A stretch of 64,000 nt of DNA from Actinomycetospora chiangmaiensis DSM 45062 (GTDB taxonomy: Bacteria; Actinomycetota; Actinomycetes; Mycobacteriales; Pseudonocardiaceae): assembly GCF_000379625.1 (NCBI RefSeq), contig NZ_KB903240.1, forward strand, positions 248,195 through 312,194, read 5' to 3'. Of the stretch, positions 5,115 through 7,255 are shown piece after piece. Every line of letters starts with the position of its first letter. The stretch's first letter is position 1. The notes under the pieces are model-generated. The model ran no database searches, was not told where the DNA came from, and saw only the letters and a list, made by a program, of their open reading frames with translations. Made by a program: the position numbers and the translations under genes.

Positions 5115-5528
5115 CTAGCCGCTGACGGTCGGCCCCGCCCGGTCGAGGTGGATCCGCACCGCCACCCGCCGCTCGCGGCGCATCGCGTCGTCGAACTCGT
5201 CCCAGTCGTCGTGCTCACCGCCGGTGACCTGGCGGTAGAGCGTCCGCAGTGGCTCGTGGGCCGCGGGCAGGTCGACGATCTCGACGTCGCCCTCGACCTG
5301 CACCCACTCCCCGAAGAAGGCGTCGGGGAAGACGCACACCCACGCCCGCGGCGTCCGCCGCAGGTTCTTCGCCTTCACCGCGGTCTCCCGGGTGCTGATC
5401 ACCGCCGCGCCGTCGTCGTCGATCCCGACGACGACGGGCGAGAGCTGCGGGGCACCGTCGGAGCGGGTGGTGGCGAGCACGGCGTGGTGGTGCTCGCGGA
5501 GGTAGGTGCGAGCCTGGTCGAGGTCCAT
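5115..5528 (-). CDS. PPOX-class split-barrel F420/FMN-dependent oxidoreductase
   Basis: A 137-residue protein with the pyridoxamine-5'-phosphate-oxidase-like split-barrel fold: an N-terminal helix, the [20 protein letters not shown] strand pair, a phosphate-binding [18 protein letters not shown] segment and a C-terminal AVRIHLDR strand. The size and pattern match the small actinobacterial TIGR03618-like group, members of which bind F420 or FMN and reduce small molecules. The ATG at 5528 is chosen because family homology starts right there; the frame stays open upstream but with no family similarity. No strong ribosome-binding site is visible. The substrate is unknown. Confidence 0.8.
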
Positions 5529-5650: not shown

Positions 5651-7213
5651 CTACAGCAACGAGAGCTGTTCCGGCGGCGCCGACTCGACCAGCGCCGCCG
5701 GCACCCGCGGCAGCGCTCCGTCCGGCCACGGTTCCGGGTTGTCGGACTGCGCCCCCCTCCCGCCGTCCAGCCGCCCGCCCATGTGGTGCCCGCCGCCGTC
5801 GAGGCCGTGGCGGCGCAGCAGCACCCGGACGCGCGCGGCGAGGTCGTCCCGGTACGCCCGCTGCACGTACGCCCCGTGGCGGTAGAGCTCCGCGTAGCGC
5901 TCGAGCAGGTGCGGGTGCTCGCGGGCGAGCCAGCCGTGGAACCACTCGCGCGTGCCGGGCCGCAGGTGCAGGGCCAGCACCGACGCACCGCTCGCCCCGG
6001 CGGCCGCGATCTCGCCGAGCAGGGCGTCCAGGGCGGCGTCGGCATCGGTGAGCCCCGGCAGGACGGGTGCCACGAAGACCCCGACGGGGAGTCCGGCGTC
6101 GGCGAGGCGCCGCACGAGGTCGAGGCGGGCCCGCGGGGTCGGGGTGCCGGGCTCGACCGAGCGGTGCAGGTCGGGGTCGAGCAGCGCGAGCGACACGCCC
6201 ACCCCCACCGGGACGTCGCGCCCCGCCGCGGTGATCTCGGGCAGGTCCCGCGCAAGGAGCGTGCCCTTGGTGAGGATCGACAGCGGGGTCCCCGAGCGGC
6301 CGAGCGCCCGGATGATGCCCGGCATCAGCCGGTAGCGGCCCTCGGCCCGCTGGTAGGGGTCGGTGTTGGTGCCCATGGCCACGTGCTCGCGGGTCCAGCG
6401 GGACGAGCGCAGCTCCCGGGCGAGCACCTCGGGGGCGTTCAGCTTGACCACGACCTGCCGGTCGAAGTCCTCCCCCGCGTCGAGGTCGAGGTAGGTGTGG
6501 GTGTTGCGGGCGAAGCAGTTGTGGTGCACCAGCCCGACGGCGACGTAGTCCCCGGCCGTGGTGGTGACGTCGTAGACGGTGCCCTCCCCCGCCGGCTCCA
6601 CCGCGACGAGCGTCCGGTCGGCGCCGCGGGACTCGTCGAGCACGTCACGGACCCCGGCGAGCCCGGGGGCGGGCAACGTCTCGGCCCCGACCAGGGCGTC
6701 GCCCGGCACGAGCCAGGTGCCCCCGTGACCGTCGGCCCCCGACCGGGAGACGTGCCGCCAGCCGGTGCGGGCCAGCAGCCGGTGGTCGGCCCCGACGAGG
6801 ACGGACGTCCCGTCGACGACCCGCACCCGCACCACCGAACGCCGGCTCGACCAGTGGGCGAGGACGTGGGTGCGCACGAGCCGACGCACCCCGCCCTCCT
6901 CGACGGTCCCGACGATCGCGTCCCCGACGCGCAGATCGGCCATGGGCACCGTCCCGCCGTCGGCCCGCAGGACCGGCGTCCCGCCCGCCACGCAGTAGGT
7001 GCACGCGTGGGAACAGCCGCGGTACGGGTTGACGGTCCAGGCGAAGGGCATCGGGGAGCCGCCCGGGACCCGGTTGAGCACGGAGCGCGCCCGCACCTCG
7101 TGGAACGTGATCCCGGCGAACTCGGGCGTCTGCACGCTCCGGACGAGGCCCTTGAGGGCCGGCATCCCCGGCAGCGCCCCGTCGTCGTCCAGTTGCTGAC
7201 CCGCCCACCGCAT
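5651..7213 (-). CDS. Rv2578c-family radical SAM protein interrupted by a mini-intein
   Basis: A 520-residue precursor. The N-extein (1-73) ends in GCSHACTY, carrying Cys67 and Cys71 of the radical SAM CxxxCxxC motif. Residues 74-232 form an intein, and the C-extein resumes with Cys233 in CFARNTHTYLDLD. Splicing would join GCSHACTY to CFARN and so complete the [4Fe-4S] site; the mature protein would have 361 residues. The C-extein has the usual TIM-barrel segments (GTNTDPYQRAEGRYRL, LSILTKGTLLARDL, GVGVSLALLD). The family resembles spore photoproduct lyase-like enzymes, but its reaction is not established. The M. tuberculosis orthologue is in the LexA regulon, and here tandem LexA boxes lie 10-42 nt upstream of the ATG at 7213. 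The frame extends further upstream through those boxes, so that part is not coding. Confidence 0.9.
   Translation of the reverse strand: MRWAGQQLDDDGALPGMPALKGLVRSVQTPEFAGITFHEVRARSVLNRVPGGSPMPFAWTVNPYRGCSHACTYCVAGGTPVLRADGGTVPMADLRVGDAIVGTVEEGGVRRLVRTHVLAHWSSRRSVVRVRVVDGTSVLVGADHRLLARTGWRHVSRSGADGHGGTWLVPGDALVGAETLPAPGLAGVRDVLDESRGADRTLVAVEPAGEGTVYDVTTTAGDYVAVGLVHHNCFARNTHTYLDLDAGEDFDRQVVVKLNAPEVLARELRSSRWTREHVAMGTNTDPYQRAEGRYRLMPGIIRALGRSGTPLSILTKGTLLARDLPEITAAGRDVPVGVGVSLALLDPDLHRSVEPGTPTPRARLDLVRRLADAGLPVGVFVAPVLPGLTDADAALDALLGEIAAAGASGASVLALHLRPGTREWFHGWLAREHPHLLERYAELYRHGAYVQRAYRDDLAARVRVLLRRHGLDGGGHHMGGRLDGGRGAQSDNPEPWPDGALPRVPAALVESAPPEQLSLL
6518..6994 (-). other. 159-residue mini-intein inside the radical SAM gene
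   Basis: Translated from the minus strand it starts CVAGGTPVLRADGG (block A with nucleophile Cys1), has a block-B-like VGADHRLLARTGW with the conserved His but Gly instead of the usual Thr three residues before it, and ends in a block F/G stretch VYDVTTTAGDYVAVGLVHHN, with penultimate His and terminal Asn. The next residue is Cys (+1). All splice-site residues are therefore present. At 159 residues there is no room for a homing endonuclease domain, so it is a splicing-only intein. The insertion point is immediately before the third cysteine of CxxxCxxC. Confidence 0.9.
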
Positions 7214-7222
7214 GAGCAGCAG

Positions 7223-7255
7223 TCGAACACGTGTTCGCATCGAACGCAAGTTCGA
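7223..7255. promoter_or_regulatory. Tandem LexA (SOS) boxes
   Basis: The actinobacterial SOS box is TCGAAC-N4-GTTCGA. A perfect copy is at 7240-7255 (spacer GCAA), and a copy with one changed base (final A to C) is at 7223-7238 (spacer ACGT). Their centres are 17 bp apart, so two LexA dimers could bind on adjacent turns. They lie between the divergent radical SAM gene and acyl-CoA dehydrogenase gene; known regulation of Rv2578c points to the former. Confidence 0.85.

Follow-up and report, generated by a model that had tools for sequence, protein, structure and literature searches.

The gene for a putatively SOS-controlled radical SAM enzyme of Actinomycetospora chiangmaiensis DSM 45062 most probably carries an ordinary class 1 mini-intein, the remnant of a LAGLIDADG homing element that became fixed at an Fe-S codon of its host. 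We put the probability of this reading at roughly 0.84. The gene lies within a stretch of 64,000 nucleotides (assembly GCF_000379625.1, contig NZ_KB903240.1, positions 248,195 to 312,194), which was analysed as a whole and is referred to here as the window (Table 1). Inteins are maintained at active-site codons that are conserved, since nothing but their precise removal is tolerated there. Judging from the two boxes in front of the gene, LexA is predicted to repress its transcription until DNA damage occurs, and this control at the level of the gene would operate independently of the intein. The precursor is predicted to fold with the Hint domain splitting the cluster motif. According to residues and fold, the intein would then excise itself by means of Cys1, the block B His and the terminal HN, thereby joining Tyr73 to Cys233, which would restore GCSHACTYCFAR and enable the enzyme to take up its cluster. 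Any redox effect exerted through the cysteine at position -3 (Cys-3) and Cys1 would be a by-product of the insertion site.

Host gene and insertion site

The open reading frame of 520 amino acids reads ...NPYRGCSHACTY/CVAGGTPVLRAD...YVAVGLVHHN/CFARNTH..., with the slashes marking the borders of the intein. Across the junction the host sequence is GCSHACTY/CFARNTH, which makes the third cysteine of the CxxxCxxC motif the +1 residue. The three cysteines of this motif, C67, C71 and C233, are invariant among 37 aligned sequences, irrespective of whether these contain an intein. Against the NCBI models NF038136 ('intein-containing Rv2578c family radical SAM protein') and NF038135, its counterpart for the family without intein, the precursor scores 783.8 bits (cut-off 700) and 522.8 bits, respectively. 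The Pfam domain Radical_SAM (PF04055) is recognized in the host protein. A radical SAM host with an intein is an architecture that NCBI already curates, and the remark in the initial annotation that intein proteins of the Rv2578c type are known as a group is borne out by NF038136, which covers the same host and the same insertion site. The two differ in size: the model comprises 574 positions and the commonest inteins of the family have 292 or 294 residues, whereas the window's intein has 159 residues and yields no endonuclease match. The top named relatives of the precursor are from Actinomycetospora, with A. soli reaching 91% in its best segment. Downstream of the gene, an open reading frame on the minus strand (5115-5522) resembles, by inspection, a small flavin/F420-dependent protein of the pyridoxamine-oxidase type.

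Table 1. Features of the precursor gene, its upstream region and the element junctions in related genomes (positions refer to the window unless a locus is named)
Feature	Position	Strand	Basis
Precursor gene (520 codons and stop), intein-containing radical SAM protein of the Rv2578c family	5651-7213	-	NF038136, NF038135 and PF04055 matches
N-extein, residues 1-73, with cluster cysteines C67 and C71 (C71 is Cys-3 to the intein)	6995-7213	-	both cysteines invariant across 37 aligned sequences
Mini-intein, residues 74-232 (159 aa), Cys1 to Asn159; Cys1 is its sole cysteine	6518-6994	-	sequence, relatives, model, fold match
Intein Cys1, standing in the sequence where the third cluster cysteine would be	6992-6994	-	sequence
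Block B GADH (usual TxxH; Gly for Thr, His kept)	6782-6793	-	sequence, family comparison
Penultimate His and terminal Asn (HN) of the intein	6518-6523	-	HN in 76/76 distinct inteins
Cys+1 (C233), third [4Fe-4S] cysteine of the mature enzyme	6515-6517	-	invariant in 37 aligned sequences
C-extein, residues 233-520 plus stop	5651-6517	-	ORF translation, extein matches
SOS-type box, palindromic, one mismatch to TCGAACNNNNGTTCGA, at -25	7223-7238		pattern match; -24/-25 is the commonest offset in relatives
SOS-type box, perfect TCGAACGCAAGTTCGA	7240-7255		pattern match
Element junctions in related genomes	L173 (G126) 2171-2242 and 16019; L175/L176 (G109); L177 and L139 (G148); L056 3030

To define the empty site, 161 loci (L001-L161) were compared. 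An N-extein match was obtained in 152 of them and both extein halves in 151; the nine loci without N-extein match are L002, L046 and L047 as well as the split-gene loci L056, L090, L127, L129, L139 and L146. The gap between the N- and C-extein measures exactly 0 nt in 57 of the 151 loci, and the other 94 contain an intein, whose length is a multiple of three in 92 cases. Alignment of intein-free orthologues across the junction, which the initial annotation had put forward as a check, is therefore clean, and it places the cut where it had been proposed, namely just before the third Fe-S cysteine with Cys+1 as the third cluster ligand. The proposed span of 6518-7000 was right to within two codons, the intein actually covering 6518-6994. 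After removal of 20 identical hosts, of L104 (matched host part of only 164 residues), of L096 (no C-extein) and of L140 (stop in the N-extein; its upstream box scored 8/12), 129 distinct hosts were kept out of the 152. L105 (G050) and L106 (G082) were counted as intein-bearing hosts and left out of the set of 76 distinct inteins. Their intein regions contain stops and do not share the reading frame of the exteins, so that either the gene is broken or the assembly is wrong.

Anatomy and fold of the intein

The residues of a class 1 intein are present, that is Cys1, the terminal HN and Cys+1, and the block B His is kept. All 76 distinct inteins start with Cys, end with His-Asn and are preceded by Cys at position -3; in 17 of them, including that of the window, there is no cysteine beyond Cys1. 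The initial annotation had pointed out that block B lacks its usual Thr. This holds for the window and is a trait of the entire family, since the position three residues before the His is occupied by Ser in 61 and by Gly in 15 of the 76 distinct inteins, and never by Thr; the missing Thr was accordingly dismissed as a special feature of the window's intein. Gly occupies this position in seven of seven distinct inteins of the window's clade, in which the first splicing step could thus be slow. Because Cys1 replaces Cys233 in the linear sequence, the precursor possesses a complete CxxxCxxC motif. Cys1 hence does stand in for the missing ligand in sequence, as had been suggested, and the accompanying statement that no cluster is possible prior to splicing is an inference.

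When searched alone, the intein scores 25.1 bits against TIGR01445 (intein_Nterm; cut-off 24.5) and also matches part of NF038136. The score against Pfam Intein_splicing is 18.0 bits and falls below the cut-off of 35.8. No strong sequence relative was detected in the PDB, the best match (E 0.14) being itself an intein. An AlphaFold model of the precursor, calculated with 37 aligned precursors and intein-free relatives as input, reached a mean pLDDT of 79.2 and a pTM of 0.63, with values below 50 for residues 234-249 directly past the junction. Foldseek comparison of this model returned solved inteins first (6frg, E 8e-10; 6riz, TMt 0.90), the matches comprising Ssp DnaB, Npu DnaB and gp41-1 and, lower down, Mtu RecA. 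In the model, the window's intein adopts the Hint fold.

No LAGLIDADG or other endonuclease model matched the window's intein at E <= 1, and a weak match to Hom_end_hint corresponds to the Hint part. In contrast, LAGLIDADG_3 was found in two of three longer inteins of the family that were scanned (L173, L081). Intein lengths are 159, 165 or 166 residues within the genus of the window and range from 143 to 519 residues among the 77 intein-bearing hosts, the commonest being 292 (22 hosts) and 294 (nine hosts). As longer relatives carry LAGLIDADG_3 and lengths extend from 143 to 519 residues, the forms with 143-166 residues look like remnants devoid of endonuclease, and the 159-residue intein looks like a reduced form that has lost it. 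The 519-residue intein of Pseudonocardia dioxanivorans (L050, 1540-3096) is unusually long; it yielded no endonuclease match and contains a weak collagen-like match of low complexity.

SOS-type boxes and control of the host gene

A link to DNA damage had been surmised initially and is apparent from the two LexA-type boxes just upstream of the gene. Boxes were scored against TCGAACNNNNGTTCGA, which we take to be the consensus of the mycobacterial-type SOS box, using a threshold of 11/12 that was set after the scores were known. The perfect pattern occurs at 13 places in the genome of the window and the reversed control pattern at none. Among the 129 hosts, 132 boxes reach at least 11/12, and 101 of these are located at -24 or -25 in front of a conserved R-W start. 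In the Pseudonocardiaceae, taken here as the hosts named as such together with those carrying the family code of the window (f1), such boxes precede all 74 intein-bearing and all 26 intein-free hosts. Outside this family they are present in three of three intein-bearing and in eight of 26 intein-free hosts. The 18 hosts that miss a box of at least 11/12 score 8-10 in 16 cases, all of them other or unplaced actinobacteria, and 7 in two cases, an unplaced bacterium and a member of the Terriglobia. In several of 15 upstream regions inspected, a TTGAC-like hexamer is located ahead of the box, in which case LexA would cover the promoter. Since alleles without intein have the box just as regularly, the SOS link belongs to the host gene, and the predicted SOS control is a property of this gene that is independent of the intein. 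The box was therefore discarded as part of a logic linked to the intein.

Genes for Y-family polymerases and error-prone DNA polymerases are typical of the mycobacterial SOS response. We scanned 19 open reading frames beside the 13 perfect boxes, chosen among the longest that start within 260 nt on either side. Only two resemble SOS genes, both with scores below the model cut-offs: one is similar to Y-family polymerases (43.2 bits, cut-off 367) and the other, which ends at the locus end, to error-prone DNA polymerase (DnaE-like; 467.9 bits, cut-off 939). Five others have unrelated matches, including the divergent acyl-CoA dehydrogenase gene of the window, and 12 are without match. The LexA table published for Streptomyces venezuelae includes the radical SAM gene vnz_31145 (PMC9380542), and a RecA-dependent 'DNA repair photolyase' is reported for M. 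tuberculosis (PMC8151990). Provided that these genes are orthologues of the host gene, its putative SOS link agrees with the two reports.

Distribution and evolution of the intein

Among 249 family genomes, 118 score above the NF038136 cut-off, and these comprise all 16 examined from the genus of the window. None of 14 control genomes does so, although seven of them show weaker matches. Intein-bearing hosts outside the Pseudonocardiaceae belong to the Jiangellaceae and Ruaniaceae or represent one unplaced actinomycete. On a quick tree of the 129 distinct hosts, presence of the intein requires 18 changes, at least 11 of which are forced by starred branches, as compared to a mean of ~40.5 changes when the intein labels are shuffled. 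The distribution is thus clustered but patchy. Within the two Actinomycetospora clades, mean identity is 0.804 for the intein versus 0.912 for the exteins in one clade and 0.868 versus 0.928 in the other, with median omega values of 0.210 versus 0.118 and 0.164 versus 0.127, respectively. That is, the intein evolves faster than its exteins and is nevertheless under purifying selection, as continued splicing would require. Between the clades, identity drops to 0.470 for the intein and 0.830 for the exteins, with omega values of 0.743 and 0.257, which may be inflated by saturation because dS hardly rises there.

In the intein tree, the window's clade groups with Pseudonocardia inteins (99/98.5) and apart from the other Actinomycetospora clade, as would result if the mini-intein had arisen twice in this genus; a tree in which both clades are held together has a p-AU of 0.26, making a single origin compatible with the data. 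Both the patchiness of the intein and its faster evolution are more readily reconciled with a passenger than with a conserved switch, and they are as expected of a decayed homing element. However, presence of the intein in all 16 genomes of the genus would also be expected of a useful and therefore retained element, and this counts against a mere passenger. No relative of the protein was detected among phage-collection records at E <= 1e-5.

Redox gating, impaired splicing and related inteins

It is conceivable, although in our view unlikely, that splicing is gated by redox state or metals. In this scenario, a disulfide between C71 and Cys1, or zinc or an immature cluster on the CxxxCxxC motif, would block the first splicing step, allowing maturation only in a reducing and iron-replete cell. 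A direct precedent is the intein of P. abyssi MoaA, itself a radical SAM enzyme according to PMC5352715, in which a disulfide between the N-extein Cys-3 and the intein Cys1 blocks the first step under oxidizing conditions; this work (Callahan et al. 2011) is cited here as described in PMC10663303 and PMC3922620, which likewise mention an engineered DnaE redox trap that relies on a splicing-blocking Cys-3/Cys1 pair. The same pair is found in all 76 distinct inteins, and Foldseek matched our model to the solved redox-trap precursor 3nzm as well (rank 41). Moreover, with Gly in block B the first step may be slowed, so that precursor would be available for trapping, and the CxxxCxxC motif of the precursor might bind a metal that traps Cys1 rather than allowing activity. 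Yet Cys-3 is a cluster ligand that is invariant with or without intein; as its conservation is forced by the Fe-S motif, it is uninformative on a role for the intein. In addition, the occurrence of the SOS box is unrelated to that of the intein, the intein is patchy and faster-evolving than the exteins, and the model is poor just past the junction and gives no distances. One may also imagine two locks in series, in which DNA damage lifts LexA and splicing is subsequently held by the Cys-3/Cys1 disulfide or a metal, the enzyme maturing only if the cell is reducing and iron-replete. If true, the insertion site would make the Fe-S motif itself the sensor, but we consider this improbable as well. 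The initial annotation had located the novelty in such a redox/SOS logic of the intein. This view finds no support, as the box is not tied to the intein, the intein is patchy and evolves faster than its exteins, and the redox logic has been published for MoaA.

An impaired intein that splices poorly or not at all, leaving the gene effectively off in the genus, appears very unlikely. The Gly shared by all seven distinct inteins of the window's clade and the low Intein_splicing score would be in line with it. However, the two exteins and the rest of the catalytic residues are intact, the NF038136 cut-off is passed, and the exteins are under purifying selection in the genus (median omega values given above), although loss of the enzyme should relax them.

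As judged from the sources cited above, the MoaA intein resembles that of the window in its radical SAM host, in the cysteine at -3 and in Cys1. It differs in being archaeal, in residing in another host family and in that disulfide control has been reported for it, but is merely conceivable for the window's intein. Mycobacterial DnaB and SufB inteins (PMC6195587, PMC7360933, PMC8891592), with responses to stress or zinc reported for DnaB, are likewise actinobacterial and reside in replication or iron-sulfur proteins; as far as these sources go, they differ in host and site and have experimental data behind them. No study on splicing of the present intein was found in open-licence PMC articles, among the matches listed. 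The window offers what may be a bacterial equivalent of the redox-trapped MoaA intein, encoded by a gene that is preceded by SOS-type boxes. Natural intein-free alleles can serve as controls, which renders the redox dependence of splicing with a cysteine pair forced by the site directly testable.

Integrative elements at the intein/extein junction

In three related genomes, namely G126 (Kutzneria buriramensis), G109 and G148, the N-extein and the whole intein end with HN-Cys and are followed by foreign DNA encoding a large serine recombinase. The recombinase of G126 comprises Recombinase, Resolvase and zinc-ribbon domains. That of G109 is 80% identical to it over 498 residues, and that of G148 is 68-78% identical over three pieces in three frames. 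The C-extein follows ~14 kb further on in G126 and ~22 kb further on in G109, and in G148 it is found on a different contig. G126 and G109 share one genus code, and their elements are related to each other (84% over 3.7 kb, host flank included). In Amycolatopsis anabasis (L056) only a right junction is present, giving left junctions in three and right junctions in four cases. At the left junction the sequence is AGCCACAACTGTTC.TGTTCACT for G109 and G148 and AGCCACAATTGCTCGTGTTCACT for G126, and at the right junction it is GACCACAACTG.TTCGCCCGC, or ATGACAACTGTTTCGCGCGC in G148. Common to these junctions is the core ACAACTG, which has one T on the left side of G126 and encodes the end of the His codon, Asn and Cys+1. 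All 94 intein/C-extein junctions contain this core, as opposed to none of the 57 intein-free ones, which as a rule read TACTG. The candidate attachment site in these related genomes thus appears, from three to four cases, to be created by the junction of intein and extein. Among the matches listed, no report of an intein junction serving as attB was found in open-licence PMC articles.

The Streptomyces phage Samy is described in PMC12924846 as targeting an Rv2578c-family gene. Identity of its att site with the intein codon was considered and rejected: in four Streptomycetaceae loci the 12-bp repeat is not at the codon, and an 8-bp word occurs in one of them, elsewhere in the locus. An intein-free allele is interrupted in G016 (L174, 1282 and 16713): its two halves, separated within the His-Ala-Cys codons at the second cluster cysteine and a few bases upstream of the intein site, flank a distant serine recombinase (27% over 284 columns).
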